Shown piece by piece: positions 313 through 59,109 of a DNA stretch of 64,000 nt. The stretch is from Tetracentron sinense (Eukaryota > Streptophyta > Magnoliopsida > Trochodendrales > Trochodendraceae): positions 17,370,548-17,434,547 of the forward strand of contig CM026565.1 in assembly GCA_015143295.1 (NCBI GenBank). Reading direction: 5' to 3'. The position numbers and the translations under genes were made by a program. The notes below the pieces were generated by a model, which had not been told where the DNA came from, did not search any database, and was given only the letters and a program-made list of their open reading frames with translations. Position 1 is the stretch's first letter; each line of letters opens with the position of its first letter.

Positions 313-1360
313 GTTTCCATTTTGGAGAGAAATCAAGGGGTTTGTGAACCCACACTCCACTCAAGCCCATTTTTCTTCAAGATCAAGGCACAAGCTCGTG
401 AGGAGTATCTCCTCAAGCTAGGGCAGCAACTCACGGTTGTTTTTGGAAGGGGATTTCTTCCTCACTTGATCAAGGTCGGTATTTCTTGCTACCCTCCTAG
501 TTATAGTTCCTATTTTCCCTTTATTTCTTTTGATTTTCTTTCATTTACACATGAGCTATGAGATGGATGGTCGTGAATGGGTATGAATGGTGAATGGAGG
601 TGGATGTTGGCGAATGGATGCCGTGTGGATGATGTGATGGATGAATGGGAAAGGGCATTGTACTAATAATGAACATACAAGTGTGATGTGAGCATAACCC
701 ACCTAGAAAAGCATGATTTAGGTTTAAAGGAATAATGAATAATGAACACACCATGTTTGATGAAATGCCAAGGTGAATAAAGTGAGTTGTAAATTAGGAA
801 ATGCATGCCAAATAAATTATGAATATTGCTAGGGCCTATGATAGTGTGTTTCTTGCTTTCCCTAAATGATATGAATATTACATTGCTCAATCATTGATAT
901 TATATGTGTTGTGAAATTACCCAAATGTCATATTTAAATTTAAATGCAAGTATGTACATGGTTCCCACTAGCACGGCATGCATGACATGATTTATCGAGG
1001 TTTCCAAGAACATGGTTAGAGGTGGGACATATCCTACGATATGTTTTACCTCGCTCTTGACAAGGACAAGTCAATCATGCATTATCATAAGAAGGGTTTC
1101 CCTTCTCTCGCAAGTACATATATATTATAAGAAGGGTTTCCCTTCCCTCGCAAGTACATCTCACAAGGACATCTCACAAGTGAAAGGACATGACATGAGC
1201 ATTTAGAAAGAAGGGTCTCCCTTCCCTCACAAGTAGTTTACTCTTCCAAGCATGATACAAGCATGACATGACACGGCATGACAAGCATGAGCATTTTAGG
1301 AAGAAGGGTCTCCCTTCCCTCACAAGTAGATTACTTTTCCGAACAAGCAAGCATGATACA
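313..1360 (+). repeat. Left LTR of element C, part 1 (5' truncated)
   Basis: This stretch is about 99% identical to 20173-21220 at a constant offset of 19860. It lacks the first 887 bp of the LTR as judged from the complete right LTR. It contains several repeats of an 'aagaagggtctcccttccctcacaagta' type block (about 1085-1335). It is cut at 1360 by the insertion of element A, whose 5-bp target duplication is 1356-1360. Confidence 0.9.
1356..1360. repeat. Target site duplication of element A, left copy
   Basis: ATACA precedes the LTR start of element A. The same five bases follow its last base at 13475-13479. Removing the element and one copy rejoins C's LTR to match 21216-21225 without a gap. 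Confidence 0.95.
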
Positions 1361-1572
1361 TGTAGCACCCCGGACTTTTTCATCCTTAATGAATAGCACC
1401 TTCGTAGCTAATTGGCCGTTTTTGTAGTCTAATTAATAAATAAGGGAGAAATCGGAAATTCTGAAATGTCAAAAATGTTCGTTTTCGAAAGACGGATCCA
1501 ACGCAAGTTGAATCGTCGAAATCCGACGAGCGAGTCAAAAGATATGGTCAAAACAGTCCAGACATACAGAGC

Positions 1573-1758
1573 ACCGATCGCTCGGTCCAGTCAGCGATCG
1601 ATCGGTCCATTACCGATCGATCGGTAGCTATCGCACGGTCAGAAATTTTGTATGGGGAAATTTTCCAGAGAGTGAGTTTTTGACCGGTCGATCGGTCATA
1701 AACACCGATCGCTCGGTAGGCAACCGATCGATCGGTCATAACTACCGATCGCTCGGTC
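1573..1758. repeat. Palindrome cluster ACCGATCGATCGGT in LTR A
   Basis: Seven copies of a 14-bp palindromic motif, either ACCGATCGATCGGT or the near-palindrome ACCGATCGCTCGGT, occur within 186 bp. The same cluster recurs in A's 3' LTR (8980-9165) and in solo LTR B (about 11179-11365). In the LTR of element C the same position, between conserved flanks, is filled by a different array. Confidence 0.9.
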
Positions 1759-2737
1759 TTCGCGTTTTTGCAGGATTTTCATTAAGGGCTTTTTCGTCTT
1801 TTGGGGGTTAAACCCTTTCTCCTTAAGGCTTGCCCGAGCCTTAGGGCATCATTCACTATACTTAGAGAGATTTGGGAGATAAGAGAGAAGAGAAAAGGGT
1901 TTCCTAAAACCTAGGTTGCTTTTGGAGAAGAAATCAAAGGGGTGAAGACCCTAGATCGTCCCCAAGCACGTTTTCTTCAAGATTTCAACTCAAGCTCGGG
2001 TGGGGTGCATTCTCAAAGCTAGGGCAGCCCTCACTCACGTTTTTGAAAGGGATTTCTTCCCCAACTCGAGTCTTCCTCAAGCAAGGGTTGTTCCCTACCC
2101 CTTTTGGAGCTTCAATCAAGGTTTCTACCAAGGATCAAGCCTTGATTCAAGGTTAGTACACCCTACTAACTTACCCTAACAATAAATCTAGGTTTTCCTC
2201 ATGAAATATGATTCTTGTTAGTATGTTTTATTCCTTACAAAATGTGTTATCCCCCATTAAATATAAACAAGATAATGGAAAACGCGTGGATGTGTGGATG
2301 AAATGTTGGATGTGGCGATTGGATGCCGAATGAGTGATGTATGGCATGTGTGGGTTGTGGGTTGGATAATGGAGGATGGGCATTGCACAAATAATAAACT
2401 TACCTTTGTGTGATTGAATGGAAAATATGCACTAAAAGGATGGAAATGAACCATGAAGGAAAATAGCATACTATGTGTTTGAAAAAAAATACCTAAACTA
2501 TGAATAAATGGTTTAAATGAAGAAAATGGAAATAGGTTTTATACATGTGTTCTTATAAACGATGAATTGATCCAATGTCATGTGAATTACTTAAGTTACC
2601 TATGCTAATATTATGAATTGAATTGTAATACCATATCTCTTTTGTTAAGCGCATTCCCACGATTGTTATTATTGGCACGCACATGAGCACGCATGATCGC
2701 ATGAACCGAGATTTCAAGAGCATGTGCATATAATAAA

Positions 2738-2937
2738 CACAAGTGCATTGCATAACAAGGAGGTTGGTAGCCCAGGGACATTCGGGTGCTAGCCTCTGGC
2801 TCACAAGTGCATTGCATAACAAGGAGGTTGGTAGCCCAGGGACATTCGGGTGCTAGCCTCTGGCTCACAAGTGCATTGCATATCAAGGAGGTTGGCAGCC
2901 CAGGGATATTCGGGTGCTAGCCTCTGGCTCACAAGTT
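2738..2937. repeat. 64-bp tandem repeat in LTR A, three units
   Basis: Units start at 2738, 2802 and 2866 with a partial unit at 2930, and each begins CACAAGTGCATTGCATA. The first two differ by hardly any base, the third is slightly diverged. The matching array in the 3' LTR is 10145-10344. Solo LTR B has an expanded five-unit version. Confidence 0.95.
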
Positions 2938-3651
2938 ACGAGATGGAGGTTTACAAGATGATGATCATGCATTCATGCATGCACGCATACATGATTTCTA
3001 CGAGGCATACAGGGACATGACATGGGTTTTCAAGCATGAGTTTTATCGGCGTTTTCACATTCATGTACGCACGTCAGGATGCTTGTATTGTGTTATGCCC
3101 TATACTGTTTCTTTGTGATGTTTCTATTACTGCTTGTATGATATTACTATTGTGTGTTTTATTATTGTTATGGTCTGCTAGTAGCTTGTACTCGCTAAGT
3201 ATTCCATGCTCAGCCGTACTTTCATGTCGGCAGGTACTGAGGGAGCCCTCGACCCGGAGCCTTGGGTCGAGGAAGAGTATATAGAGGAGAGAGAGCCGGC
3301 TATTCCATTACAGTCTCAGGCGGACCGAGACCTTGATGCGTGGCCATACCTTGACTACTGTTGAGGGGAGAGTATGAGAGGGTCTTATGCATTTTGATAT
3401 TTTGATAGGTGGGCCTGTCCACCTTAGACTTAGATGTGTTTTGTATTTATGTCAACTTGGAATACCATTTTGGATCATCCGAAGAAATGAAAATTTGTTT
3501 ACGCTTCCGCATATATGATAGCTTCCGTGCTCTGATTATCGTTGTTAGTATTGTATTTTATCTTGTGCATTGCAGGATGGTTTGATAGGTACGCAGTGTG
3601 ACACCTAAAATATCCCTAAACTCCTAGGGGGTATTTCGGGGCGTTACAGAG

Positions 3652-3663
3652 TGGTATCAGAGC
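3652..3663 (+). promoter_or_regulatory. Primer binding site of element A (initiator Met tRNA)
   Basis: TGGTATCAGAGC starts three bases after the LTR end. This is the usual plant retrotransposon site complementary to the 3' end of tRNA-iMet. The leader from here to the gag start (3649-3975) has no other recognisable signal except a TTCTCAG acceptor-like sequence just upstream of the gag ATG, also present before gag in element C. Confidence 0.9.
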
Positions 3664-3975
3664 TCTAGGCATTAGAGTCCCTAGGGTCACTTAGATGATT
3701 GAACAAGGTATTAGAATCACCTTAGAGAGTTGTATTCCAAGTATAGACTAACAAGTTAGTCTTAGTCAAAATGGGTTGAACTTCAACTGAACATAGAGTC
3801 CTACACTAGGAACACGGATTGTATGTTATGCTATTGTGTTATATACCATGTGTACATTATTTGTGTTGTACTTATTGAATGTGCTTGATGAATATGTATT
3901 GAGTGAATTGCGAAATTTGTACTAAATGCGTATCCAAGTTAGACTCATGTTGTATTGTCGTTCTCAGGAGAAATC

Positions 3976-5229
3976 ATGAGACGCAATACCCGGGGTCGCG
4001 GGTACAACACGAGGGGTAATGGAGGTGATGCTCCATCGGGTGATGATCAACCCGACTTTGCCCAAGCATTCGCATCCATAGCCGAGACTTTGGCTATGTT
4101 GGCGGCAAGGCAACCGGCCACTCCGCCTAATGCGGCACTTGTACCGGCTCCTCCTAACCGAGCCCAAGCCGGGATAGAAGCTTTTCGGAGGATGAGGCCT
4201 CCAACTTTTTGTGGAAGCATTGATCCACTTGTTGCCGAGGGTTGGATCCGGCAACTTGAGAACATATTCTCGGTATTAGCACCTACTGAAGTGGAAAGGG
4301 TCACATGGGCCGCCTTTATGCTTGAAGGCAAGGCCGATCACTGGTGGAAGTCTGCACTTCGGACCCGAGAGTTGACCCGGCAAGGTCAAAATTGGACTTG
4401 GGAGGAATTCTTGGAGGTTTTCAACAAGAAGTACTTTCCGGTCGGGATGAAAGAAAAGATGGAAGTCGAATTTATTACCTTGGAGCAAGGTAATATGTCC
4501 GTAGCGGCTTATGAAGCCAAATTTTCGGAGCTATCTCAATTTGCTCCACACATGATAGCGACCGAGGCTATGAAGGCCCAGAAATTTGAGAGGGGGTTGA
4601 AGGCCTATCGTAAGGACCGAGTCTCGATGTTTAGACATGAGACATATTCCGAAGTTGTTGATAAAGCACTATTGGCCGAGTCGAACTCCGAGGAGTTCTT
4701 CAAAAGGAGAGGAATGGAAAAAGGACAGTCGAGTAGTTCAGGGGAGAAAAGAGCAAGGACGAGCTTGTATCAGTCCGCAGGGCCGGCTCAGTCACAGAGG
4801 ATGTATTCAGCACCACAGGCTCCCCACTCTTTTGCTCCACCGGCCTTTCGCCCGGCTACCTCATATGCTCCTCGCCCTGCAGTTACTCAGGCTACGGGAT
4901 ATGCTCCTTCCTCCTATTTACATGATGTTTGCACTCTTTGTGGGAGGAGGCATCCAGCGGGAGAATGCAGGAGAGTTTCAGGAAGTTGCTTCCATTGTGG
5001 TGACCAAGGCCACATGGTCAGAGATTGTCCCCGGCGTCAATTGCCAACTCAGTCTTCAGGGAGCAGGCCCCTGGTTAGGCAGACATCTCAGCCTAGCTCT
5101 TCTCAGGCTTCGATAGCCTCACCGTCTACACGGCTTCCTCGCCCAGCCACACAGGGTCGAGTTTTCGCCCTATCAGAGAGAGACGCACGTGCATCCGACG
5201 ATGTCGTGCAAGGTACGCACGAATTCTAG
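3976..5229 (+). CDS. gag: Gag polyprotein of element A
   Basis: The nucleocapsid precursor packages the element RNA. The ATG at 3976 is chosen because the sequence from there (MRRNTRGRG) matches the start of gag in element C (MRRGTRGRG); an upstream in-frame ATG at 3955 is open but not conserved. The retrotransposon gag region spans about residues 55-215, with the typical block around 'HWWKSALRTREL'. A CCHC zinc knuckle, CFHCGDQGHMVRDC, lies at about residue 338, just after a CTLCGRRHPAGEC motif. The frame ends at TAG 5227-5229, inside the intron-like segment; if spliced at 5212/5345 it continues into the protease. Confidence 0.9.
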   Translation: MRRNTRGRGYNTRGNGGDAPSGDDQPDFAQAFASIAETLAMLAARQPATPPNAALVPAPPNRAQAGIEAFRRMRPPTFCGSIDPLVAEGWIRQLENIFSVLAPTEVERVTWAAFMLEGKADHWWKSALRTRELTRQGQNWTWEEFLEVFNKKYFPVGMKEKMEVEFITLEQGNMSVAAYEAKFSELSQFAPHMIATEAMKAQKFERGLKAYRKDRVSMFRHETYSEVVDKALLAESNSEEFFKRRGMEKGQSSSSGEKRARTSLYQSAGPAQSQRMYSAPQAPHSFAPPAFRPATSYAPRPAVTQATGYAPSSYLHDVCTLCGRRHPAGECRRVSGSCFHCGDQGHMVRDCPRRQLPTQSSGSRPLVRQTSQPSSSQASIASPSTRLPRPATQGRVFALSERDARASDDVVQGTHEF

Positions 5230-5344
5230 AGTTTAAATTGTGTAAAATTTCTATGGTTTGCTTTGTGAGTTTCTATATTAAGGGTTACCTATGTATGATG
5301 CTCGTTGTTTGAAATCTACTAATAGTAGTCACTTAATCGCACAG
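5213..5344 (+). other. Intron-like segment between gag and protease, element A
   Basis: The 132-bp segment begins CAAG|GTACGC and ends CGCACAG|G. It is AT-rich, with a branch-site-like CTACTAATA near 5317. Joining 5212 to 5345 restores an unbroken gag-pro frame that aligns residue for residue with element C (DDVVQG then LLVNE), which has no such segment. The length is a multiple of three and there is an in-frame stop at 5227-5229, so unspliced RNA would give Gag only and spliced RNA Gag-Pol. Splicing itself is inferred. Confidence 0.75.
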
Positions 5345-5862
5345 GCGCTTTGTTAGTGAACGAATGTCTTGCCCGAGTGTTGATCGACACAAGATCCACT
5401 CACTCCTTTGTGTCGCCTAGTTTCGCAAAGGGATTTTTGACTGAGGCTACTCCGTTAAAGCAGGAGTTGACCATTGCAACTCCACTCGGCAAGTCAGTTG
5501 ATACGGACAAGATATTCAGGGATAGTGTGATTCAAGTGGGGGAGAATGAACTGTTAGCCGATCTCATCGTCCTAGATTTTCAAGACTTGGATTTTGATGT
5601 CATCTTAGGGATGGATTGGTTGTCAAACCATCACGGGCATGTTACGTGTTTTGAGAAGATGGTGAATTTCAAGCCGGAAGGGGGTAAGCCTTTTCACTTC
5701 CGAGGATTAAGAGAGAGGGACCTTGCTCGCCTCGCAGCCTTGAGTATAGCAAACCTAGAAGCACAAAACTCCTCGGCCATTCCGGTCGTGAGTGATTTTT
5801 GGACGTGTTTCCGGAGGAACTTCCCGGGTTACCTTCGAATCGGGAGATTGAGTTCGCTATAG
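5345..5862 (+). CDS. pro: Protease part of pol, element A (frame-broken before RT)
   Basis: This is a retropepsin-type aspartic protease that processes Gag-Pol. The active-site motif reads [10 protein letters not shown]; element C has the canonical LIDTGSTHSF, so the catalytic glycine is replaced by arginine. The second conserved block, DVILGMDWL, follows about 80 residues later. At 5795-5799 a run of five T replaces the six expected from element C (gaattcctgg region), which shifts the frame, so the downstream RT continues in the next frame from about 5799. Residues after about 5798 in this frame are not homologous to anything. Confidence 0.85.
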
Positions 5863-8675
5863 AGCTTACTCCGGGCACCGCTCTAATTTCAAGGGCACCG
5901 TATAGAATGGCCCCTATAGAGCTGGAAGAATTGAAGAAACAGATTGAGGAGTTACAACAACTTGGTTTCATCCAACCAAGTGTCTCACCGTGGGGAGCTC
6001 CGGTTCTCTTTGTGAAGAAGAAGGACGGGTCTATGAGGATGTGTATAGACTACCGTCAGTTGAACAAGGTAACTATCAAGAATCGTTATCCCTTGCCAAG
6101 GATAGACGACTTGTTTGACCAACTGAAGGGAGCGAGATTTTTCTCCAAAATTGATCTTAGATCGGGGTATCATCAATTAAGGATCAAGGCGGAAGATGTT
6201 TCGAAGACGGCTTTTAGGACTCGGTATGGGCATTACGAGTTCCTTGTCATGCCTTTTGGGCTGACGAATGCACCGGCGGCATTCATGGATTTGATGAACC
6301 GGGTGTTCCGATCTTACTTGGATCGATGCGTGATTGTATTCATTGATGACATTTTGGTGTATTCCCAGACACGGGAAGATCACGCACGAGACCTCCGCCT
6401 TGCTCTGGAGATGTTGAGAGAGCATAGGCTATATACCAAATTGAGTAAGTGCGAGTTCTGGTTAGAGAAGGTTGCATTTCTTGGACACGTGGTGTCGGCC
6501 GAGGGCATTTCTGTAGATCCAGCCAAGGTTGAGGCAGTCATGAGTTGGGAGAGGCCCAAGAGCGTCACGGAGATACGTAGTTTCCTCGGATTGGCAGGCT
6601 ACTACCGGAGATTTGTGGAGGGATTCTCCAGTTTGGCTACACCTCTCACCTACTTGACAAGAAAAAATACAAAGTTCAGTTGGAGTGACCGATGTGAAGT
6701 AAGTTTCCAAGAGTTGAAGAAACGCCTCACCACAGCCCCTGTCCTTACTGTGCCATCTGGACCTTTTGGGTATGAGGTGTACAGTGATGCCTCACATGTT
6801 GGACTCGGGTGTGTCCTAATGCAACACAAGAAGGTCATTGCCTATGCATCAAGGCAGTTGAAAGAGCATGAAAAGAACTACCCCACTCACGACTTGGAGC
6901 TTGCGGCGGTCGTGTTTGCACTTAAAATTTGGCGACATTATCTGTACGGGGTAGAGTTCTACGTGTACATGGACCACAAGAGCCTCAAGTATCTCTTTTC
7001 CCAAAAAGAGCTAAACTTACGACAACGGCGTTGGATTGAGTTCTTAAAGGACTACGAGTGCACTATCCAATACCACCCGGGAAAAGAAAATGTTGTGGCA
7101 GACGCTCTGAGTAGGAAACCATCGGGGTTGTTGGCTCACATGTTGGTGCGGGAATGGAGACTGTTAGACGATTTGGTAAATCTAGACATCAGTGTGAACG
7201 ATTCTGTCCGCAGTCCGGTTTTGGCGAATGTTACAGTTCGGCCGTACCTTATAGACTTGATCCAGGAGTATCAAGCCACAGACACTGACTTGTTGGCTTT
7301 CCGGGATAAGGAAGTGGCCAAGGGTAGTACGGACTTCTCTCTCTCTAGCCGAGGTGCTATTACATTCAAGGGAAGGCTTTGTGTCCCAGCCAATACAGAC
7401 CTTCGGAGAGAGATTATGGACGAAGCTCACCAATCTAAGTATACAGTGCATCCCGGGGGGACAAAGATGTATCGGAACCTCAAGAGTCACTTCTGGTGGC
7501 GAAACATGAAGAGGGAGGTTGCGGAGTATGTGGCACGGTGTTTGGTGTGCCAACAGGTGAAAGCAGAGCATTTGAGACCGGCGGGTCTTTTGCAGTCTCT
7601 CCCTATTCCCGAGTGGAAATGGGAACATATCTCTATGGACTTCATCGTGGGGTTGCCGAAGACGGTTAGGAAGACCGATGCTATATGGGTAGTTGTTGAT
7701 AGACTCACGAAGTCCGCTCATTTCTTACCGTACCGGACTACATTCAACTCCAATCAGTTATCGGATCTATACATCAAGGAAATAGTCCGATTACACGGGG
7801 TGCCAGTGAGTATTGTGTCGGATAGAGATCCAAGATTCACATCCAGGTTTTGGAAAAGTTTTCAAGGCGCAATGGGCTCCCGGTTAGACTTTAGCACAGC
7901 TTTCCACCCACAGACCGACGGGCAAACCGAGAGGGTGAATCAGGTTATTAAAGATATGCTCCGAGCATGTATGCTAGACTTCATGGGAAGTTGGGAAGAT
8001 CACCTACCTTTGGTGGAATTCGCTTACAACAATAGTTATCAAGAAAGTATACAAATGGCGCCTTTCGAGGCTTTGTACGGAAGGAGTTGTAGATCCCCGT
8101 TGTATTGGGATGAAGTGGGAGAAAGAAAGATTTTGGGCCCCGAGTTAATTGAACAAACCGCGGATAAGGTCAAGCTTATCCGGGAGAGGTTAAAGACCGC
8201 ACAAGATAGACAGAAAAGCTATGCCGACAACCGAAGGAGGGATCTTGAATTCCGAATCGGTGATCTTGTGTTTGTAAGGATTTCACCGACCAAAGGCGTT
8301 ATGCGATTCGGGAAGAGAGGCAAGCTTAGCCCGAGATATGTGGGTCCATTCGAGATCATTACTCGAGTTGGCGAGGTGGCTTACCGTGTTGCTTTGCCCG
8401 CTCACATGGCGGCGGTCCATAATGTATTCCATGTCTCTATGCTCCGGAAGTACATCTCGGATTCTTCTCATGTCATCGAGCTTGATCCGATTGAGATCCG
8501 AGAGGACCTCACTTTAGTTGAGAAGCCGGTTCATATTTTGGATAGGAGAGATCAAGTGCTTCGCAACAAGACTATTCCGCTAGTCCTCGTACAATGGCAA
8601 CATCATGCACGAGAAGAAGCCACGTGGGAGCGTGAAGCTGAAGTCAAAGCAAAGTACCCCGAGTTATTTGAATAG
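5799..8675 (+). CDS. pol: RT, RNase H, integrase and chromodomain of element A
   Basis: The 958-residue frame starts at the frameshift, not at a true start codon. Reverse transcriptase covers about residues 55-230, with the active site FIDD at 181-184. RNase H covers about 320-440, with D330, E367, D392 and D435 in place. The integrase zinc finger has H544, H551, C581 and C584; the core has D614, D675 and E711, an exact D,D35E spacing. The C-terminus (about 840-958) carries the GPFEII module and ends in a chromodomain-like [15 protein letters not shown], typical of Tekay/Del chromoviruses and known in the family to guide integration into heterochromatin. All catalytic residues I can check are intact. 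Confidence 0.93.
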
Positions 8676-8754: not shown

Positions 8755-8767
8755 AAGGGGGGGAGAA
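8755..8767 (+). promoter_or_regulatory. Polypurine tract of element A
   Basis: AAGGGGGGGAGAA directly abuts the 3' LTR start at 8768. This is the expected plus-strand primer site for reverse transcription. Confidence 0.9.
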
Positions 8768-10967
8768 TGTAGCACCCCGGACTTTTTCATCCTTAATGAA
8801 TAGCACCTTCGTAGCTAATTGGCTGTTTTTGTAGTCTAATTAATAAATAAGGGAGAAATCGGAAATTACGAAATGTCAAAAATGTTCGTTTTCGAAAGAC
8901 GGATCCAACGCAAGTTGAATCGTCAAAATCCGACGAGCGAGTCAAAAGATATGGTCAAAACAGTCCAGACATACAGAGCACCGATCGCTCGGTCCAGTCA
9001 GCGATCGATCGGTCCATAACCGATCGATCGGTAGCTATCGCATGGTCAGAAATTTTGTATGGGGAAATTTTCCAGAGAGTGAGTTTTTGACCGGTCGATC
9101 GGTCATAAACACCGATCGCTCGGTAGGCAACCGATCGATCGGTCATAACTACCGATCGCTCGGTCTTCGCGTTTTTGCAGGATTTTCATTAAGGGCTTTT
9201 TCGTCTTTTGGGGGTTAAACCCTTTCTCCTTAAGGCTTGCCCGAGCCTTAGGGCATCATTCACTATACTTAGAGAGATTTTGGAGATAAGAGAGAAGAGA
9301 AAAGGGTTTCCTAAAACCTAGGTTGCTTTTGGAGAAGAAATCAAAGGGGTGAAGACCCTAGATCGTCCCCAAGCACGTTTTCTTCAAGATTTCAACTCAA
9401 GCTCGGGTGGGGTGCATTCTCAAAGCTAGGGCAGCCCTCACTCACGTTTTTGAAAGGGATTTCTTCCCCAACTCGAGTCTTCCTCAAGCAAGGGTTGTTC
9501 CCTACCCCTTTTGGAGCTTCAATCAAGGTTTCTACCAAGGATCAAGCCTTGATTCAAGGTTAGTACACCCTACTAACTTACCCTAACAATAAATCTAGGT
9601 TTTCCTCATGAAATATGATTCTTGTTAGTATGTTTTATTCCTTACAAAATGTGTTATCCCTCATTAAATATAAACAAGATAATGGAAAACGCGTGGATGT
9701 GTGGATGGAATGTTGGATGTGGCGATTGGATGCCGAATGAGTGATGTATGGCATGTGTGGGTTGTGGGTTGGATAATGGAGGATGGGCATTGCTCAAATA
9801 ATAAACTTACCTTTGTGTGATTGAATGGAAAATATGCACTAAAAGGATGGAAATGAACCATGAAGGAAAATAGCATACTATGTGTTTGAAAAAAAATACC
9901 TAAACTATGAATAAATGGTTTAAATGAAGAAAATGGAAATAGGTTTTATGCATGTGTTCTTATAGACGATGAATTGATCCAATGTCATGTGAATTACTTA
10001 AGTTACCTATGCTAATATTATGAATTGAATTGTAATACCATATCTCTTTTGTTAAGCGCATTCCCACGATTGTTATTATTGGCACGCACATGAGCACGCA
10101 TGATAGCATGAACCGAGATTTCAAGAGCATGTGCATATAATAAACACAAGTGCATTGCATAACAAGGAGGTTGGTAGCCCAGGGACATTCGGGTGCTAGC
10201 CTCTGGCTCACAAGTGCATTGCATAACAAGGAGGTTGGTAGCCCAGGGACATTCGGGTGCTAGCCTCTGGCTCACAAGTGCATTGCATATCAAGGAGGTT
10301 GGGAGCCCAGGGATATTCGGGTGCTAGCCTCTGGCTCACAAGTTACGAGATGGAGGTTTACAAGATGATGATCATGCATTCATGCATGCACGCATACATG
10401 ATTTCTACGAGGCATACCGGGACATGACATGGGTTTTCAAGCATGAGTTTTATCGGCGTTTTCGCATTCATGTACGCACGTCAGGATGCTTGTATTGTGT
10501 TATGCCCTATACTGTTTCGTTGTGATGTTTCTATTACTGCTTGTATGATATTACTATTGTGTGTTTTATTATTGTTATGGTCTGCTAGTAGCTTGTACTC
10601 GCTGAGTATTCCATGCTCAGCCGTACTTTCATGTCGGCAGGTACTGAGAGAGCCCTCGACCCGGAGCCTTGGGTCGAGGAAGAGTATATAGAGGAGAGAG
10701 AGCCGGCTATTCCATTACAGTCTCAGGCGGACCGAGACCTCGATGCGTGGCTATACCTCGACTACTGTTGAGGGGAGAGTATGAGAGGGTCTTATGCAGT
10801 TTGATATTTTGATAGGTGGGCCTGTCCACCTTAGACTTAGATGTGTTTTGTATTTATGTCAACTTGGAATACCATTTTGGATCATCCGAAGAAATGAAAA
10901 TTTGTTTACGCTTCCGCATATATGATAGCTTCCGCGCTCTGATTATCGTTGTTAGTATTGTATTTTA
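8768..10967 (+). repeat. 3' LTR of element A, left part
   Basis: Corresponds to 1361-3560 at offset 7407, interrupted by solo LTR B after base 2200 of the LTR. It repeats the palindrome cluster (8980-9165) and the 64-bp array (10145-10344). The last five bases, TTTTA, are the target duplication of B. Confidence 0.95.
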
Positions 10968-11178
10968 TGTAGCACCCCGGACTTTTTCATCCTTAATGAA
11001 TAGCACCTTCGTAGCTAATTGGCCGTTTTTATAGTCTAATTAATAAATAAGGGAGAAATCAGAAATTCTGAAACGTCAAAAATGTGTGTTTTCGAAAGAC
11101 GAACCCAACGCAAGTTGAATCGTCGAAATCCGACGAGCGAGTCAAAAGATATGGTCAAAACAGTCCAGACATACAGAG

Positions 11179-11365
11179 AACCGATCGCTCGGTCCAGTCA
11201 GCGATCGATCGGTCCATAACCGATCGATCGGTAGCTATCGCACGGTCAGAAATTTTGTATGGGGAAATTTTCCAGAGAGTGAGTTTTTGACCGGTCGATC
11301 GGTCATAAACACCGATCGCTCGGTAGGTAACCGATCGATCGGTCATAACCACCGATCGCTCGGTC
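11179..11365. repeat. Palindrome cluster in solo LTR B
   Basis: The same seven-fold ACCGATCGATCGGT-type array as in LTR A, with the same spacing apart from small substitutions. Confidence 0.85.
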
Positions 11366-12338
11366 TTCGCGTTTTTGCAGAAATTTCAGTAAGGGCGTTT
11401 TCGTCTTTTGGGTGTTAAACCCTTACCCATAAGGGTTTGCTCGACCCTTTTAGGCCTCACTTACAACATTTGAGGGCTTTTGAGAGATAGAGAGAGAAGA
11501 GGAGAAAGCTCTAACCTAGGGTTTGGTTTTGAGAAGGAAATCAAAGGGGGTTTAAGAACCATAGCTCACCCCAACTCGAGTTGCTTCAAAATCGAGGCTC
11601 AAGCTCGTGTGTGAACCATTCTCCAAGCTAGGGCAGCAACCCAAGCACGTTTTTGAAAGGGGTTTCTTCCCCAACTCAAGTCTCCTTCAAGCAAAGGTGT
11701 TCTTCTTTCAAGTTGGAGCTTCAATCAAGGTTTTTACCAAGGATCAAGCCTTGATTTAAGGTTAGTACACCCTACTAACTTACCCTAGCAATAAATCTAG
11801 GTTTTTTCCTTATGAAATATGATTCTTGTTAGTGTGTTTTATTCCTTGCAAAATGTGTCATCTATAATAAATATAAACAAGATAAAGAAAGAGTAGGGAT
11901 GCTTGGATGGAGGTTGGATACGGCGATTGGATGCCGAATGTGTGATATATGATGTGTGGGATGTGGATTGGAAAATGGAGGATGGGCATTGTACAAATAA
12001 CAAACTTACCCTTGTGTGATTGAATGGAAAATATGCATTAAAAAGAAGGAGATAAACTACTAAGGAATAACGTATGAAAGTGTTTGACAAAATGCCTAAA
12101 CTATGAATAAATGATCTCAATGAAGGACATGGAAATGGGTTTTATGCATGCGTCCTTATAAATGATAAATTGATCAAATGTTATGCAAACTACTTATGTT
12201 ACTTATGTTCATATCATGAATTGAATTATAATGTCATATTTGGTTATTTCCATTATCATGATTGTCACTATGGACACGTACACGAGCACGCATGATAGCA
12301 TGAACCGTGATTTCAAGAGCATGTGCATATAATAAACA

Positions 12339-12667
12339 ACAAGAAATATTGCATGTCAAGGAGGTTGGTAGCCCAGGGACATTCGGGTGCTAGCCTCTGG
12401 CTCACAAGTGCATTTCATAACAAGGAGGTTGGTAGCCCAGGGAGGATTCGGGTACTAACCTCTGGCTCACAAGTGCATTGCATAACAAGGAGGTTGGTAG
12501 CCCAGGGACATTCGGGTGCTAGCCTCTGGCTCACAAGTGCATTTCATAACAAGGAGGTTGGTAGCCCAGGGAGGATTCGGGTACTAACCTCTGGCTCACA
12601 AGTGCATTGCATATCAAGGAGGTTGGCAGCCCAGGGAGATTCGGGTGCTAGCCTCTGGCTCACAAGT
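12339..12667. repeat. 64/65-bp tandem repeat in solo LTR B, five units, higher-order
   Basis: Units begin at about 12339, 12403, 12468, 12532 and 12597 and the array ends at 12660. Spacings alternate 64 and 65 bp, and the two alternating unit types (64-bp 'gacattcgggtgctag' and 65-bp 'gaggattcgggtacta') form a 129-bp composite that was duplicated. An open frame of 175 codons (12323-12850) reads across it with a 43-residue period; I regard it as a by-product of 129 being divisible by three. Confidence 0.9.
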
Positions 12668-13386
12668 TTACAAGATGGAGGTTTACAAGATGATGATCAT
12701 GCATTCATGCATGCACGCATACATGATTTCTACGAGGCATACCGGGACATGACAGGGGTTTTCAAGCATGAGTTTTATCAGCGTTTTCGCATTCATGTAC
12801 GCACGTCAGGATGCTTGTATTGTGTTATGCCCTATACTATTTCTTTGTGATGTTTCTATTACTGCTTGTATGATATTACTATTGTGTGTTTTATTATTGT
12901 TATGGTCTGCTAGTAGCTTGTACTCGCTGAGTATTCCATGCTCAGCCGTACTTTCATGTCGGCAGGTACTGAGGGAGCCCTCGACCCGGAGCCTTGGGTC
13001 GAGGAAGAGTATATAGAGGAGAGAGAGCCGGCTATCCCATTACAGTCTCAGGCTGACCGAGACCTCGATGCGTGGCCATACCTCGACTACTGTTGAGGGG
13101 AGAGTATGAGAGGGTCTTGTGTATTTTGATATTTTGATAGGTGGGCCTGTCCACCTTAGACTTAGACATGTCTTGTATCTATGTTAACTTGGAATACTAT
13201 TTTGGAATCATCAGAAGAAATGAAAATTTGTTTACGCTTCCGTATATATGATAGCTTCCGCGCTCTGATTATCGTTGTTAGTACTGTATTTTATCTTGTG
13301 CATTACAGGATGGTTTGTTAGGTACGCAGTGTGACACCTAAAATATCCCTAAACTCCTAGGGGGTATTTCGGGGCGTTACATTTTA

Positions 13387-14620: not shown

Positions 14621-15880
14621 ATGAGGCGGGGCACACGGGGTCGTGGACCACATACCAGAGCTTCCTCTTCTTCACGGGATGAGGATGAGCAGCCGGACCT
14701 CTCTCAGGTCTTAGGCTCTATTGCTGAGACACTCGCCATACTGGCGGCTCAACAAGCTATACCATCGTCGGCGGCACCTACTCCACCGCCCGCAGCTCCA
14801 GTACACCGTACCGCTGGAGTTGAGGCATTCAGGAGATTGAGGCCTCCACCCTTCCATAGGAGTGTGGACGCTCTTGCTGCGGAGGCATGGATCCTCCAGA
14901 TGGAGAAGATCTTTGCGGTCCTCTCGCCTACAGAGGAGGATAGAGTAGCATGGGCAGTTTTCATGCTAGAGGGTGAAGCCCACCATTGGTGGTTGTCCGC
15001 ATTGAGGACACGAGATTTGACCATGCAGGGTCAACCTTGGACTTGGGAGGAGTTCAGAGATACTTTTTACAAGAAGTATTTTCCGATCGGTGCACTGGAG
15101 AAGAAAGAGAGAGAATTCATCAACCTTGAGCAAGGTTCGATGTCTGTGGCCGCTTATGAGGCCAAGTTCTCGGAGTTGTCGAGATTCGCGCCTCATATGG
15201 TTGCTACTGAGGCAATGAAGGCGAGAAGATTTGAGCAAGGGCTCAAGGATGTTATTATGGAGAAGGTTTCCGTTTTCAGGCATGCTACCTACCCTGAAGT
15301 GGTAGACAAGGCCTTGTTGGTTGAGAGCAATTCAGAGACCGTGTCCAAGAAGAGAGAATTGGCGAGAGGCCAATCTAGTGGTTCGGTACCTTTAGGGAGG
15401 CGGGTCCGGACTGGTCCTTATCAGTATACATGGCTAGCACCACAGATGAGGCCGACTTATGCGCCTCCAGCCCCACTGCAGTACGTGCCATAGGCACCTC
15501 GACCTCAGGCTCTTCCGGCCCCTCGGCCAGTTACACCTCAGGCAGCGAGGTATACACCACCTTCGGCCCCTCCGGCCTACACATATGAGGTCTGCACTTC
15601 ATGCGGCAAAAGGCATCCGGTAGGAGATTGCCGAAGAGCATCTGGTGGATGTTATCATTACGGTCGCCAGGGCCACATGATCAGGGATTGCCCTAGCCGG
15701 CATTTACCAGGCCAGTCTCAGGGTAGTAGGCCCCCAGCACGCCCAGCAGGATCATACCAGGCGTCATCTCAGACTACCTGGTCTACACCTCATTCTCGCC
15801 AGGCAAACCAGGGGTGAGTTTTTGCCTTGACAGAGGGTGATGCACTTGCATCTGATGATGTGGTGCAAGGAACCCTACTA
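14621..15880 (+). pseudogene. gag: Gag of element C, with stops
   Basis: Starts MRRGTRGRG and is collinear with gag of element A, including the 'HHWWLSALRTRDL' block. The frame is open to TAG 15491-15493 and stays homologous beyond it, with a second stop TGA at 15815-15817. Compared with element A these are CAG to TAG and CGA to TGA, both C-to-T changes. The zinc knuckle reads CYHYGRQGHMIRDC, so its second cysteine is tyrosine. Gag, protease and RT lie in one frame here, showing that the family ground plan is a single gag-pol frame without the 132-bp segment of A. Confidence 0.9.
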
Positions 15881-20020: not shown

Positions 20021-22001
20021 CGCGTTTTTACAGAAATTTCAGTAAGGGTATTATGGTCTTTTGGTCGGTTTATTCTTACCTTAAGAGTTTAACTCGAGCC
20101 TTTAGGGCATCATTCAACACTTAGAGAGTTTGAGAGAATAAGAGAAAGGGGAGAAGGCGATTCCAACCTAGGGTTTCCATTTTGGAGAGAAATCAAGGGG
20201 TTTGTGAACCCACACTCCACTCAAGCCCATTTTTCTTCAAGATCAAGGCACAAGCTCGTGAGGAGCATCTCCTCAAGCTAGGGCAGCAACTCACGGTTGT
20301 TTTTGGAAGGGGATTTCTTCCTCACTTGATCAAGGTCGGTACTTCTTGCTACCCTCCTAGTTATAGTTCCTCTTTTCCCTTTATTTCTTTTGATTTTCTT
20401 TCATTTACACATGAGCTATGAGATGGATGGTCGTGAATGGGTATGAATGGTGAATGGAGGTGGATGTTGGCGAATGGATGCAGTGTGGATGATGTGATGG
20501 ATGAATGGGAAAGGGCATTGTACTAATAATGAACATACAAGTGTGATGTGAGCATAACCCACCTAGAAAAGCATGATTTAGGTTTAAAGGAATAATGAAT
20601 AATGAACACACCATGTTTGATGAAATGCCAAGGTGAATAAAGTGAGTTGTAAATTAGGAAATGCATGCCAAATAAATTATGAATATTGCTAGGGCCTATG
20701 ATAGTGTGTTTCTTGCTTTCCCTAAATGATATGAATATTACATTGCTCAATCATTGATATTATATGTGTTGTGAAATTACCCAAATGTCATATTTAAATT
20801 TAAATGCAAGTATGTACACGGTTCCCACTAGCACGGCATGCATGACATGATTTATCGAGGTTTTCAAGAACATGGTTAGAGGTGGGACATATCCTACGAT
20901 ATGTTTTACCTCGCTCTTGACAAGGACAAGTCAATCATGCATTATCATAAGAAGGGTTTCCCTTCCCTCGCAAGTACATACATATCATAAGAAGGGTTTC
21001 CCTTCCCTCGCAAGTACATCTCACAAGGACATCTCACAAGTGAAAGGACATGACATGAGCATTTAGAAAGAAGGGTCTCCCTTCCCTCACAAGTAGTTTA
21101 CTCTTCCAAGCATGATACAAGCATGACATGACACGGCATGACAAGCATGAGCATTTTAGGAAGAAGGGTCTCCCTTCTCTCACAAGTAGATTACTTTTCC
21201 AAACAAGCAAGCATGATACATGACATGACAAGCATGGGCATTTAGGAAGAAGGGTCTCCCTTCCCTCACAAGTAGTTTACTTTCCTAGCAAGCATGATAT
21301 GGCATGACACGCTTGATATGACAAGATAAGACAACATGACAAGTTTCAAGCACGGAAATGGTATTTCCAATCAAGTCAAGTGCACAAGGTTTTCAAGGGT
21401 TTTATCGGCTTTCTACGAAATACAAGCATGATTATAAATTGCTTTTACTTCCTTGTATGATATGAATTGTTTCCGTCTAACATATATGAATTGCTCCTGA
21501 TTTACGTATTGCCATTTTTATGCTATGACTGTTGGTTAGTATTTGGTACCCGCTGAATATTCCATGCTCAGTCGTACTTCTTATGTCAGCAGGTTCTGAG
21601 GGAGCTGCTGTTCTATTTGATGTTTGTGCTCCTGGTCCATGGGTGGAAGAGGAGTACGTCGAGGAGCCTTTGGAGGAACCTCCAGTAGAGGGTTACCATT
21701 AGGTGGTTGTGGATTCTGAGTGAATAGCTATGGGTGAGATGAGAGATATACATTTATGTATTTTGTCGGGTTTGTCCGCACTTTCTTTTGGATTCCTTTT
21801 GTGTAAACTTGGATTCGTATATACATAGAGGTTTATTTAGACTTCCGCTGTGCTATGTTAGAGTATGTTTCCGCTGTTTATATCCCTTATTGTATATGCT
21901 CTGTGGGTTTTTGCAGGTTGGTTTGTCAAGCAAGTCATGTAAGCCATGATTAGTCGTCCAAAGTTCACTCTAACTCCTAGGGTGGGTTTTGGGTCGCGAC
22001 A

Positions 22002-34652: not shown

Positions 34653-34676
34653 CCCCCCCCCCCCCCCCCCCCCCCC
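34653..34676. repeat. Poly-C tract (24 C)
   Basis: An uninterrupted run of 24 C inside the copia LTR. The second copy of this region begins at the same tract directly after the N gap, which suggests it is an assembly break point. Confidence 0.95.
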
Positions 34677-34898
34677 TTTGGAGAAATCCTAATTGAATTA
34701 GGATTGATTGGTTGTTGACTAATCCCTTTAATTAAGGAATCCCTTTTGAAAATGACTCTTTAATTAGTAGGATTACTATAACTAAAGTAATTATAGTTAA
34801 AGTAGGATTTATTTAAATTAATAATAAGAGTTATTATTAATAAATAACTCCTAAAGGGATAAGTTGTAGTTGGAGTAGGATTTGGATTTGATCCAATC

Positions 34899-34906
34899 TA
34901 TAAATA
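34899..34906 (+). promoter_or_regulatory. TATA box of copia LTR
   Basis: TATAAATA followed by a C/A-rich start region is placed as expected for the U3/R border of a copia LTR. The second copy has the same box near 55746. Confidence 0.6.
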
Positions 34907-35959
34907 CCCCAACACCCAAAACGTATGGAGTACAATCGTCATTAATTCTCCAGAATTTTTTCTCTCCCTCTCCTCCTCTCCAAAACCATGAGCCCTTAGG
35001 GTATTCCCTAGGGATTTTCATGAGTTACAAGGGTGCATCCAAGTTGGGTTTTTTCGATTCAAGGGTTTTGGGTGATAGAAAGTCTACACCATTACTCCAA
35101 ATTCTTCCTCTTGCTTCTTAAATTCCAAGTAGAGATTCTAAAGCTTTGTGGGGATAGCGAAGAACAAGGATCGAACTTCGAGTATTTATTCGAAAAATCT
35201 CTACAAAAAGTTCTGACGATTCGAGTGGCTATTAGCTTCACCGGTGAACATCATTCACTGACGTAATATGACTAAAACTCATAGATAATTTTAGTTGCTT
35301 TCTATGGTGTAAAGATCATCGGGATCCAGTTTCCGCATAATTTTTTATCCGGATCCCCCTTCATCCCACACAACATTCCCCATCCTCCTTTAACTCTTAT
35401 ACGGGTCTTAATAACCCAAAAACATCATTTGATTCCATTCATTATCATTCAAACACCCATATTTACAAATTATCATTTTCATTCATTTTTGTTTTTCCAA
35501 ACCTAACTCAATCAAGATTCACGAAATTAAAAGACATAGATTATCACATAAGATCATTACTCACCCAATGAACGTGTTAAATGTAGATTCTTGAAATTGA
35601 AGCATGAATATTTAAAACCCTATAAACCATGCCATTTTCATCTTTAAACCTAGAGATCATCATCATATGCTCAAAATCACAAGGTTCACACAAGAACCTG
35701 AAAAACAGAGAAGGTAGGAGATTTCACCTTGATTATTCGGCGATTTCCCTGTACGGTTGGCTTTCCTTTCCCTTTCTTCTTTTTCTCTTTTTCCTTTTCC
35801 TTTTCCTTTTCTTCTCTTATTCTTCTTGGTTTTCCTCCTTGGTTCCCTTTGAAGCCACCGAATAGAGAGTGAGGGAGAGGGAGGTGGGAGCATGAGGGAG
35901 AGCAAGGGAATGAGAGGGCTGAAACGTAATGGGGAGGGGGCTTGCTTTTGATCTTTTGC

Positions 35960-35979
35960 ATATATATATATATATATAA
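35960..35979. repeat. (TA)n microsatellite
   Basis: About nine TA units ending TATATAAAG. The second copy (from 56815) is longer by a few units. Confidence 0.9.
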
Positions 35980-36199
35980 AGGGCATGACCTTACTACTTA
36001 GGCATGGGCCAAAGTACGGGTCAAGCCTGGGCCTTATACTTGGGGTGATGTCATCCTCATCACTACTCACTTAATGTCGCTTTCGACACGAATCGGTGTA
36101 CGATTCGACCGATGTGACGTTCTAACCACTATTGACTGTGTTTTATGTGCACAGGTGTGGCTACTATTGTTTGGCCGAGGTAGGTACGGGCCCCACAAG

Positions 36200-36674
36200 T
36201 AGGGATATCAATGGGTTGGATTCGGACTGGATCTGCCTAGATCCGAATCTGATCCGATTAAGAATTCGACATATCCGAATCTGATCCGAGATCTGTCGGA
36301 TCATTAATTAATCGATCCGAATCTGATTATATTTTTAAGATCCGATCCGATCCAATCCGATCCGATTAATATTCATTTTTTAAAAAAAAATCTATTTTAA
36401 TAATATAAAAATCTATTATTACCTTAATTAACTCTAATTAATGTTAATTTTTTTAAAATTAATACTTTATCTATAAAAAATCTATTTAATATATTTAAAA
36501 CGATTTTAAAAAGTTAATATAATCGGAACAGATCATCCTATATCCGGATTTGATCCGATTATAATCGGATTCTACCGACTCGATCAGAATCCGATCCGAC
36601 GGATCACATATAAGGTCCAAAGTCCGGCTAATTAGATCGGTTCCAGATCATGATCTGATCCATTGACAACCCTA
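36200..36674. mobile_element. hAT-type MITE, 475 bp
   Basis: Terminal inverted repeats are TAGGGATATCAATGG on the left and CCATTGACAACCCTA on the right (two mismatches). The flanking 8-bp duplication is CCCACAAG (36192-36199 and 36675-36682). The interior is made of repeated GATCCGA blocks around an AT-rich core and has no coding capacity. An 8-bp TSD points to hAT-family mobilisation. The second copy is 57058-57532 with identical TSDs. Confidence 0.88.
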
Positions 36675-36833
36675 CCCACAAGTAACTGCCCGAACACTGA
36701 GAATACTTTATCGGGTTACCAAAAAATAGGGTAAAATAATATTTTAATAATATTTTGATGCCATTAATTAAATTAATTTAATTAAGTGGGCTTATGACCC
36801 AATAATTTTATGTTTAAAATCCGGGTCGTGACA

Positions 36834-37744
36834 CTCTAAGTCACTTACTGTCCTAAGGTGTGAGAGCTGAGCTTTGGTGGAATATTCTTCAATTGAATCT
36901 CTTCACAACTTCATCATCACGAACCTTACACTCAGGAGACATTAACTCTGACCACATTTTGAGTACAAAATTTGTCAATTACAAACATAGACCTTTCAAT
37001 TTTCCTTTGTATATAGTATTTGAGGCTCCTACTTGTTTTAACTCCTTCCCAGACAGCCCGTGAAACCATTTACATCCAAATCGATCTCCATGACATTCGA
37101 AAGTGACTCATGACATAGGAAAGCATTAAGTAGTAGTGGCTCATTTTCGTAAGGAAAAGCAGTAACAATTTGTTAAGTAATGCATATACCTTGATTTTGC
37201 TTTGCACATTATAGTGTGTAATCTTATATTACAAAATATGTAGTATAACCTATTTATTTTATTGCCAGATTTTTCTCATACTTTCCATGAAACACAAAGA
37301 AACTTTCGCTATCTATGGCGGACATAAGAAAGAGAATAAGAATATTACCTATGGGCACAATAAAACATATAGATGAAAGAAACAAAATTGAATGAGAACC
37401 TAAGTTCACAAAAGGTTACATTCTTAACTCGACTTGATGGTAATTAAGAATTATCATTACAATCACCAGTGGGTGGCACGTAAGAGAGGGGAAGGGGTGA
37501 GAGACTGGAAAGAGGGACCCTAGTAAGGGTATTTGAAATATAAAAATTAAGGAATATTTTGGATATAAAAACTTGAGGGACATTTTGGATATCCTCTATT
37601 CAAATAGATAGTTGTGAGGGACACATTGGTTATAAAAATATGAAGTAGGGGCATTTTTGGTATAACAAAGAAAGGGGTCAGACAAGACCTTGGTGAGATG
37701 TTCTTCTTTCGAAGCATTTTGCCAAGAGAGCGAGGAGTTTGATT
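36834..37744. other. Noncoding, no gene seen
   Basis: AT-rich sequence with short direct repeats of the form 'gacattttggatat' near 37550-37600 and no convincing frame on either strand. It may be part of a decayed element; no family is recognisable. Confidence 0.5.
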
Positions 37745-38175
37745 ATGCCACTGAGGTCGCCACGTGTCTCTTTTAATACTCCTTAACTATGATTAAGATT
37801 CACCCATCCTTGAAGTTCACCCGCATATCCTTGGTTTTCAAAAAAAAAAGATTTTTTTTAACCCTATGAGTTATTGAATTTTCATCAATATTTTTTTTCT
37901 AAAAACCAAGTATAAGTGGGTGAACTTTAGGGGTGGGTGAATCTTAACCATAGTTGGAGTCCAATTACGCACTTGAGGTTACCACATGTCTCTTTTGACA
38001 CCCTTAACTATGGTTAAGATTCACCAACCCCTAGGGTTCACCCACCTATCATTGGTTCTTAGAAGAAAAAAATTAGCCTTAGGAGTTAGTGAATTTTAAT
38101 TAGGGTTTAAAAAATAAATATTTTTTTAAATAAAAAACCAAAAATAAGTGGGTGAACCCTAGGGGTCCCATGTGT
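37745..38175. repeat. Two stacked hairpin (MITE-like) repeats
   Basis: TTAACTATGATTAAGATTC... (37783-37840) is inverted at 37898-37958, and a similar pair lies at 38006-38060 and 38123-38165. A third half-unit follows at 38190. Each hairpin is preceded by the direct repeat 'ccac(g/a)tgtctctttt'. They look like adjacent copies of a foldback element. No coding sequence is present. Confidence 0.65.
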
Positions 38176-38689
38176 CTCTTTTGACACCCCTTAACTGTGG
38201 TTAAGATTCATCTACCGCTAGAGTTCATCCACCCCTAGGGTTTGTGATCAAGGGATTTTACTTCGCCTCTCCAGTAGGTATGATGTTGAGAGTAGCCACC
38301 TATTAATTTAGAAGGGATAAGTCCCCAGGTTATGGATAAGGTCTTGGTCTAAGTTTGAGATCTAGGTAATAGGTTCGGTTAAGTCCCGGGGAAGGTGTTA
38401 GGCATCCCAGGACCCCCATTTTACAATAGTTCCCTACTTTCTAGGTTTAAGCCAAATTAAAGTCAAATTATTGCTCAAATGCCTAAATGTTTAAAGTAAT
38501 ACTAACCCAAGAAAGAAAAGCTAATTACGGTCGAACCCAGGTTGGGTTGCCTACGTAGTCACAAGACTCAGATCAAATCGAGCGTAGTTCAGGCACATGG
38601 GCTCGTGCCAAGGCTAGGGGTGTGTGTGTGTGTGCACCGAGGTGGCTAAGGGTCTAGCCCAGAGGCTTGAGTTTGGTTGACCAAGTTGG

Positions 38690-38990
38690 TCAAGTGCATG
38701 GTTTAGGCCTGGTAGACTAAGGATAGTTCGGTAGACTAGGATTAGGCCCGGTAGGCCAAGGGGTAAGTCTGGTAGACTAAGATTAAGCCCAGTAGGCCAA
38801 GGTTAGATTTAACTGAGGTTAGGATTGCTAACCGAGGTTAAAGGTCGAACTAACCATGGGTAGGATTGTTAATCATAGTTGAGGGTAGCAATGATTAGGC
38901 CCGATAGACCGAGTTAGGCCCGGTAGGCCGAGGGTAAGCCCGGTAGGCTAAGGGATTAGGCCCGATAGGCCAAAAGAGGGTTTAACCGGA
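38690..38990. repeat. Short degenerate repeats (CCGGTAGGCC and TAACC/GGTTA types)
   Basis: About ten copies of an 18-22 bp unit built on 'aggcc(c/t)ggtaggcc', interleaved with palindromic TAACCATGGTTA-like blocks that continue to about 39180. The second copy is near 59560-59860. Confidence 0.8.
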
Positions 38991-39291
38991 GTTAAGGTTG
39001 CTAACCGGGGTTAAAGGGAAAGTCAACCATGGTTAGAGCTGCTAACCATAGTAAAAGAGTTCAAAGTAGAAATATTTTGGTCACTTTGCAATTTCAGAAT
39101 GATTTTTGCATTTTTCTAGATTTTAAAGGGTTAAAGGTGGGCCTTAACCAAGGTTAAAAGTTAACTGGGGTTGAGTTAACCCTGGTTAAAGGTCTAGGAA
39201 GGTCTGGAATGGGCCTAGATAGCATGACAAGGCGTAGAATGGCCTCCTACCTGGTCTGAGCCCTGTACAAAGCCCAATATATAGAACACCA

Positions 39292-40484
39292 GTAATGGCG
39301 GTAAAATGATTACCGCCATTACCAAGCAATTCTGGCACTGGTTTGTAGCCCTGGTGCACGGGTTAGAGATGAACCCAAGGGGTCGTGTACCCACAGGGTT
39401 AAAGAGGGGACTCTCGTGAAAGTCCTAGGCCTTTGGTGGGCCCTGGGTATGGTCTGAAGTGGGCCCAAATAGGGCCTAAATACACTATGAATGGTAACTT
39501 AGAATGGCGGAAGAGCTTCGATTGCCATTCTGGACAGTTTTTGTTCTAGGCTAATTTAATCATGGTTAAGCAGCTAGGGTGACTTTGGAAGGACCAGGGT
39601 AGATAGAGGAGAGTCTAAGGGACCCAACCATGGGCCCTAGAGTGGACCAGGGCCCACCCAAACAGGTGAAAATCCTACTGTAATCAGAACCTCAGGAATG
39701 GCGGTACTGAGTTTACCGCCATCCTAGCATTTCTCAAAAAACTATAATTTACCCCCTAGGCCTGGGCTAGGCTACTTCCAGGGGATCCCTCAAGGCCTGA
39801 GGGTCCCCTAGAAGGTCTAGGAAAGTTTTCATGCAATGGGGTCTTGTACCTGAGCTCAAAAGCCTCAAGGGAGTTCCCCCATGCCTATGAGGAAAACAAG
39901 GAGACCGCTATCCTTTGCTGTAGAATACTAATAACATGAAATAAATGGCTCCTACAATAGGACCAGAGGCCTTACAGCTTGAAAAAAAAAAGAGGACAGG
40001 GGGTAGGGGATCTTACCCTGTTGATATAGCTTTCTACAGTGATGGAGTAGCTATACACGGTGGTGGAGGGTGAAGGCAAGCCTGGGGATAGCCTGGTACA
40101 GTTTCTGGGATGAACTGGGGTTCCTTTAGGGTGTAGGACAAGATTTAAGATGTTAGGTTTTCAGGCTGCACAGCAGTTTGGTAGGAGTTTCACGTAGGTT
40201 TTTAGAATGAATGAACTATAAATAGGGGGGGATTATATAGGATTGGGAAGGACCCAGGGGCACTCTAGGGATTCAGGAGAAGGTTTAGAACCCCAGGGGC
40301 GGACCTGAATAGGCCAGGGGGTGCTAGTTGCACTCTACACCAAAAATGAGTAATGGCCGTAGAGGTTTTACCACCAGTCTCAGTTTTTTGTTAAACTGGG
40401 CCCAACCCTCTTCCAATTGGTCTATGTACACTGTTGAAATTTTCTTAGTTAGAAATGGTGGTAATGTTATTGCCGCCATTCTCA
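39292..40484. repeat. Five dispersed AATGGCGGT hairpins
   Basis: The first, 39292-39322, is a perfect inverted repeat with 13-bp arms GTAATGGCGGTAA and a 5-base loop. Degenerate versions of the same hairpin lie at about 39501-39531, 39695-39723, 40349-40378 and 40452-40484. They are scattered through otherwise unrelated sequence. Confidence 0.85.
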
Positions 40485-52601: not shown

Positions 52602-52693
52602 GTACTTTTATCTATAAGTTTTTATGAAGTATCAAATTAATTATGTATTGTTAGTATCTAAGCAATTGTGAATGCAATTGTTGTATTACATAG
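52602..52693 (+). other. Intron 1 of TNP2 transposase
   Basis: AAG|GTACTT ... TTACATAG|G. Splicing joins codon AG|G and yields the N-terminus expected for the family. Confidence 0.75.
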
Positions 52694-59030: not shown

Positions 59031-59109
59031 TGTGTCTCTTTTGACACCCCTTAACTGTGGTTAAGATTCATCTACCGCTAGAGTTCATCCACCCCTAGGG
59101 TTTGTGATC

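Follow-up and report, generated by a model that had tools for sequence, protein, structure and literature searches.

A segment of 132 bases that separates gag from protease in a chromovirus of Tetracentron sinense (positions 5213..5344, forward strand, of the 64,000-nucleotide stretch of genomic DNA analysed here, hereafter the window) is probably a spliceosomal intron, whose removal would give an RNA for Gag-Pol and whose retention would leave an RNA for Gag. In terms of mechanism, the unspliced RNA, which would also be the genome, would be translated into a Gag ending five codons into the intron, splicing of 5212 to 5345 (phase 1) would yield the RNA for full Gag-Pol and, if splicing were partial, Gag would be made in excess of Pol. 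An intron at this place had been proposed by an initial annotation of the window, together with a role in setting the Gag:Gag-Pol ratio that would follow from the reading frames, and the genome has lent the proposal partial support: the segment is found family-wide, occupies an AG|G site, has diverged at a neutral rate and is absent from some close relatives exactly at its GT/AG limits, while splicing itself is what we infer from these observations.

Element A and the anatomy of the segment

The element bearing the segment, element A, lies on the forward strand and is delimited by a 5' LTR of 2,288 bp (1361..3648), whose TG...CA ends were read directly, and a 3' LTR (8768..10967) interrupted from about 10968 by the LTR of another, related element inserted in it (10968-13381); the pair is 98.9% identical over 2,202 aligned bases (1360-3561 vs 8767-10968). 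Between the LTRs there are a primer binding site, TGGTATCAGAGC (3652..3663), read from the sequence, which we take to be of the initiator tRNA-Met type; gag, or exon 1 (3976..5212, ending in GTGCAAG), with the capsid (PF03732/PF19259) and zinc knuckle (PF00098) domains of Pfam in its translation; the putative GT-AG intron of phase 1; the protease, or exon 2 (5345..5795), recognized by Pfam (RVP_2, PF08284) and translation; and RT, RNase H, integrase and chromodomain (5796..8675), recognized by Pfam and the list of open reading frames. This domain order (PR-RT-RH-INT in Pfam, with a chromodomain at the C-terminus of the integrase) is that of a chromovirus, the Pfam Chromo match being below the cutoff of 25.1 bits in element A (E 2.2e-4, 21.5 bits) and above it in element C of the same window (E 1.3e-5, 25.5 bits). 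The chromodomain, the long LTRs and the compatible tRNA-Met type primer binding site make a place in the Tekay/Del clade plausible, the single continuous gag-pol frame described for Beta members of that clade being interrupted in element A by the segment, with its six in-frame stops. The location of the segment between zinc knuckle and protease, and not between GAG-PROT and RT as in Ogre-type elements, together with the chromodomain, places element A outside the Ogre lineage. The window copy itself is broken: its protease motif is DTR (DTG in most other copies shown), and its RT is out of frame with the protease, with a frame change near 5800.

The left flank of element A (313-1362) recurs to the right of element C (20173-21222, 98.95% identity), so that a second repeat encloses element A or some larger block containing it. 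In each of three LTRs (1573-1757, 8980-9164 and 11180-11364) a palindrome-like motif of 14 bases, ACCGATCGMTCGGT, occurs seven times, with at most one mismatch and within about 185 bases per LTR (chance expectation 0), possibly as a regulatory array. Farther along the window, 34653-43152 and 55500-64000 are the two copies (97.1% identity) of a direct repeat of 8.5 kb that runs to the window end, and between them (52662-54627) a transposase-associated domain is followed by a Transposase_21 open frame (tnp2 family), presumably of CACTA type.

The segment runs from GTACGC to GCACAG and is placed exactly at an AG|G site, with an A+T content of 66.7%, compared with 44.6% and 52.0% for its 500-base flanks. 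It holds a branch-point-like sequence, CTACTAATA (5316..5324), with a CTAAT whose A stands 22 bases upstream of the AG, and thus combines the branch motif and the A+T-richness of a plant intron; in U2-type introns the branch-site-like motif lies some 18-40 bases before the AG. Diverged copies have variants of it (CTACTGATA, CTACTGATG, CTATTGATG and CCACTTATA). The gag frame reaches a TAG (5227-5229) five codons into the segment, five further in-frame stops follow (six in total), and the remaining two frames likewise hold stops. The length, the GT...AG ends, the A+T-richness, the branch-like site and the early stop had been listed in the initial annotation and were all confirmed in the sequence, and so was its claim that gag reads into protease where the segment is lacking: in element C the end of the gag side, GATGATGTGGTGCAAG (15854..15869, forward strand), runs directly and continuously into the protease, although C has frame changes and stops elsewhere.

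On untrained splice-site matrices, seven of the 5,038 donor/acceptor pairs 70-300 bases apart within 3976-8675 score at least as high as the pair of the segment, itself included. Its donor ranks 5 of 280 and its acceptor 12 of 376, that is, good and not the best in element A, and the top-scoring pair overall is that of this donor with another AG, at 5282 within the segment, which would leave stops in the RNA. At 5282-5300 (GGGTTACCTATGTATGATG), at most two other rows of the alignment differ from element A at any position, while the diverged segments drift elsewhere; this stretch is perhaps a splicing signal.

Could the protease be reached without splicing? The Gag stop just within the segment, and the pro frame re-entered in unchanged phase after it in the window copy, would suit a divider of two cistrons, with Pro-Pol made through recoding, an IRES or re-initiation. 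However, six in-frame stops and the stops of the other frames stand in the way, the length of the segment varies modulo 3 (132-135 bases across copies), and there is no stable RNA fold in the segment (z +0.98; 172 of 200 shuffled versions folded equally well or better) nor any match to Rfam within 3600-6000 (E up to 1), so that readthrough, frameshift and bypass are unlikely; by the same two results a structured RNA or recoding element was rejected. Furthermore, the protease frame has no ATG ahead of 5611 and its catalytic motif is at 5386, and independent AUG initiation would therefore cost the protease its active site. On these grounds we hold a two-cistron arrangement to be highly improbable.

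Presence and drift of the segment in the genome

The initial annotation had proposed to count the family members carrying the segment, and had granted that one unique to this copy, or inserted at random, would speak against an intron. The count points the other way, the segment being family-wide and exactly between AG and G: in the 1.16 Gb genome, the best 40 of 2,297 candidate matches to the segment with 60-base flanks all span it fully, at 97-100% identity, and a 35-base pattern of its 5' boundary (at most three mismatches) occurs at 843 places (control 0), which rules out a random insertion peculiar to the window copy. The exact segment-less junction, also as a 35-base pattern, occurs at 11 places (control 0), one of them L039, an outgroup to the rest, and a shorter pattern of 26 bases at 12 places, 11 of them identical to the former set. 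For every non-bearer detected there are thus about 77 bearers, a rough ratio (843 to 11) since the two patterns differ in sequence, and diverged copies, bearing or segment-less, escape both. In 17 of 22 long bearing loci the largest match between the LTRs of a pair is 96.7-99.96%, four have no pair, and L013 gives a match of only 79.9%, of doubtful meaning; a bearing copy whose LTRs are 99.96% identical indicates that the bearing line has transposed recently.

As to where the segment comes from, elsewhere in the window there are only matches of 11-19 bases (E 0.92 or more), and its best score against the element's own LTR was equalled in 7 of 200 shuffles, the corresponding numbers being 189 against the 5' UTR and 126 against the 3' UTR. 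The best 40 of 1,362 candidates in a genome search with the segment comprise 39 full-length matches and one covering bases 1-130, a set behind which a distant source may be hidden, and in the compared loci no match of less than 80 bases was among those listed at E up to 1. A mobile insert or MITE was rejected, there being no inverted ends by eye and the AGG repeat at the ends being normal for any AG|G intron. A protein search with Gag returned eight proteins, some of Vitis and Arachis, none informative.

In an alignment of 36 bearing rows, among which L002 duplicates the window copy, the segment measures 132 bases in 30, 133 in two, 134 in three and 135 in one, so the reading frame through it has not been kept; divisibility by three, on which the initial annotation had remarked, holds for the window copy but not for the family. 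GT stands at the start in 36/36 rows and AG at the end in 33/36, although the AG of L047, counted here, belongs to unrelated sequence; the other three rows end in TG, AT and CG. Eight of the 36 rows were chosen by the 5' boundary pattern and the rest by similarity, so that the constancy of the donor owes something to this choice of rows (of ten added bearers, eight came from the boundary and two from segment similarity).

In the diverged bearers L042, L043 and L046, the segment is 74-82% identical to that of element A, with small gaps, and its transversions (15/119, 12/119 and 12/119, respectively) match those at four-fold sites of the adjoining genes (20/157, 16/159 and 15/174), as expected of the interior of an inherited, largely unconstrained intron. 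Judged by dN/dS values mostly of 0.1-0.2, the coding sequence flanking the segment is under purifying selection on both sides (gag 0.11-0.18 and PR 0.10-0.16 for A against the bearers L042, L043, L045, L046 and L048). Among near-A bearers PR is not constrained by this measure, the synonymous to nonsynonymous counts being 1:7 for A-L024 and 0:8 for A-L028, a pattern that would be expected of decay once a copy has inserted. For 17 bearers of the A lineage (A, L009-L012, L014-L023, L029 and L030, other bearers being left out), the RT-RH-IN variants present in at least two copies number 24 nonsynonymous and 109 synonymous, with one stop besides, against 155 and 98, with 14 stops besides, for singletons, which were taken as mostly post-insertion (p = 1.8e-16, stops left out); the same contrast was not significant for gag alone (p 0.076) or PR alone (p 0.58). 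The constraint on RT-RH-IN among shared variants indicates that the pol of the bearing line has been selected despite the six stops upstream, and splicing would be the simplest route to a pol lying behind them, with no early ATG and no stable fold.

This selection bears on another reading, according to which the segment would be a fixed insertion, and the bearers, making Gag only and leaving pol untranslated, would be mobilised in trans by segment-less relatives. Such relatives exist (at the 11 places, or 12 by the 26-base pattern), bearers have often exchanged sequence with segment-less lines, and many bearers are broken, since among 14 near-full A-lineage copies gag is free of in-frame stops in 4, PR in 11 and RT-IN in 6 (frame changes not counted). 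Nonetheless, strong purifying selection on the pol of bearers is evident in the comparisons between subfamilies as well as in the shared A-lineage variants, the bearers greatly outnumber the detected non-bearers (by the ratio above, from patterns of different sequence), and the AG|G placement and GT...AG ends would have to be coincidental, for which reasons mobilisation in trans appears improbable as the explanation.

Segment-less relatives and the history of the family

The segment is lacking in the outgroups, element C and L039, and also in copies much closer to the bearers. Over the 100 bases adjoining the site, L039 shares 69% identity with A on the left and 82% on the right, vs 93-100% between the other segment-less copies and some bearer. 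The segment-less L032 matches the bearer L048 at 387/400 positions on the left and 395/400 on the right, and L037 matches it at 387/399 and 396/400; in both, the segment is absent exactly at GT/AG on flanks that are 97-99% identical.

In the flank trees, which were built separately from 42 of 48 rows (omitting L002, L005, L008, L026, L036 and L047), the non-bearers L031-L041, except L039, nest among bearers. The bearers L042 and L043 branch outside the other family members in the E1 tree (support 98.8/99 and 99.9/99), and the matching fork of the E2 tree has lower support (87.4/62). That the non-bearers are simply ancestral, a view compatible with an early tree that had near-A bearers only, was overturned by the diverged bearers L042, L043 and L046. 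Topology tests, from which L013 was additionally omitted, reject the monophyly of all bearers for either flank (core sets, AU p 0.011 and 0.013; all rows, far lower), and AU likewise rejects on both flanks the monophyly of the non-outgroup non-bearers, for which, in the E1 core set, AU rejects (0.0175) but KH (0.050) and SH (0.101) do not. A single gain without loss and a single loss clade were discarded on this basis, with the reservation that recombination can itself cause such rejections; either there was more than one loss of the segment, or its presence and absence were shuffled among copies by recombination.

Recombination is also seen in the segment itself. Its transversions are 1/120 vs 15/187 in the flanks between A and L045 (p 0.006), and 2/120 vs 16/187 between A and L044 (p 0.012), so that in these pairs the segment is of far more recent origin than the sequence beside it, which indicates that recombination moved it between subfamilies. 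By these comparisons, recombination certainly acts in the element A family, between subfamilies and frequently. L020, L028, L038, L044 and L045 are strong mosaics, parts of one copy grouping with different subfamilies, and the mosaicism suggests frequent template switching.

We propose a history in which the segment was gained once, was lost precisely at least once in the L031-L037 line, and was exchanged later. An ancestor of the element A family would have gained the intron at an AG|G site, at the nucleocapsid/protease border, after the split from element C and L039, and spliced RNA would occasionally have been reverse-transcribed, giving exactly intronless copies. None of the 11 segment-less junctions is a precise loss with the A-lineage protease-side flank, all of them reading CTTTATTAG, which implies that spliced RNA is not copied there or that splicing is rare. 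Moreover, AGG is common to both ends of the segment, so a deletion between the 3-base repeats would leave an identical junction. It is possible, if rather unlikely, that the intron is real and the segment-less relatives arose through such a deletion, or through an ancestral lack followed by exchange of flanks with bearers, as the strong mosaicism and the segments of L045/L048 and L044, younger than their own flanks, would allow. Against this, the segment-less copies nest within bearer diversity on both flanks, with L042 and L043 branching outside them at the support given above, the segments of these two diverge from that of A at the four-fold rate, and the flanks of L039 are unlike those of the other segment-less copies.

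Comparison with known elements and implications

The rice centromeric retrotransposon, CRR, is a chromovirus. It is cited as a Gypsy element with spliced transcripts, and element A would be like it in both respects (PMC3735527; this and the following comparisons draw on excerpts of the papers cited). In Ogre, a Ty3/gypsy element of the Tat lineage, the reading frame of the polyprotein is broken by a short non-coding stretch that some of the transcripts lose through splicing; this intron, 274 bp on average and supported by RNA, lies between GAG-PROT and RT (PMC6317226). As in Ogre, removal of the intron would allow the whole polyprotein to be made (PMC6317226). Unlike Ogre, which is not a chromovirus and whose splicing was shown on RNA, element A is a chromodomain element with a predicted intron at the gag/protease border. 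The Ty1/copia elements BARE1 and EVADE have facultative introns, whose splicing within gag-pol determines whether an RNA encodes Gag only or Gag-Pol, the intron of BARE1 being 104 nt long, U-rich and bounded as CAG/GT...CAG/GA (PMC3735527, PMC12786077). Element A, of another superfamily, would be their mirror image: there the spliced RNA gives Gag only, whereas here the unspliced RNA would. Bianca, also of Ty1/copia, has two ORFs 172 bp apart on average, for which a regulation strategy has been suggested (PMC6317226); two ORFs with a separating region are likewise present in element A, although Bianca belongs to the copia superfamily.

The chromoviruses of Beta vulgaris, including Bongo of the Tekay clade, have long LTRs (2,561 bp in Bongo3), a tRNA-Met primer binding site, the order gag-pro-RT-RH-INT-chromodomain, and gag and pol in one continuous ORF (PMC3605345). 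Element A resembles Bongo in its long LTRs, primer binding site and domain order, but the segment interrupts what is continuous in Bongo, for which the excerpted text mentions no intron (PMC3605345). In the literature searched, itself consulted in excerpts, no gag-protease intron of a Tekay element or other chromovirus was found, which does not prove its absence from print.

We consider it evenly balanced whether the fuller account holds, namely, that a gag/protease intron was gained within the history of the family and turned into a Gag/Gag-Pol switch, that reverse transcription restores intronless elements, and that gain, loss and recombinational reacquisition are legible in one genome. If true, this would be a rare intron gain, perhaps with precise loss via reverse transcription, in a mobile element with hundreds of copies. 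A splice switch at the gag/protease border, in a genome that holds relatives with and without it, would allow a direct test of how single-frame plant chromoviruses come to make more Gag than Pol.
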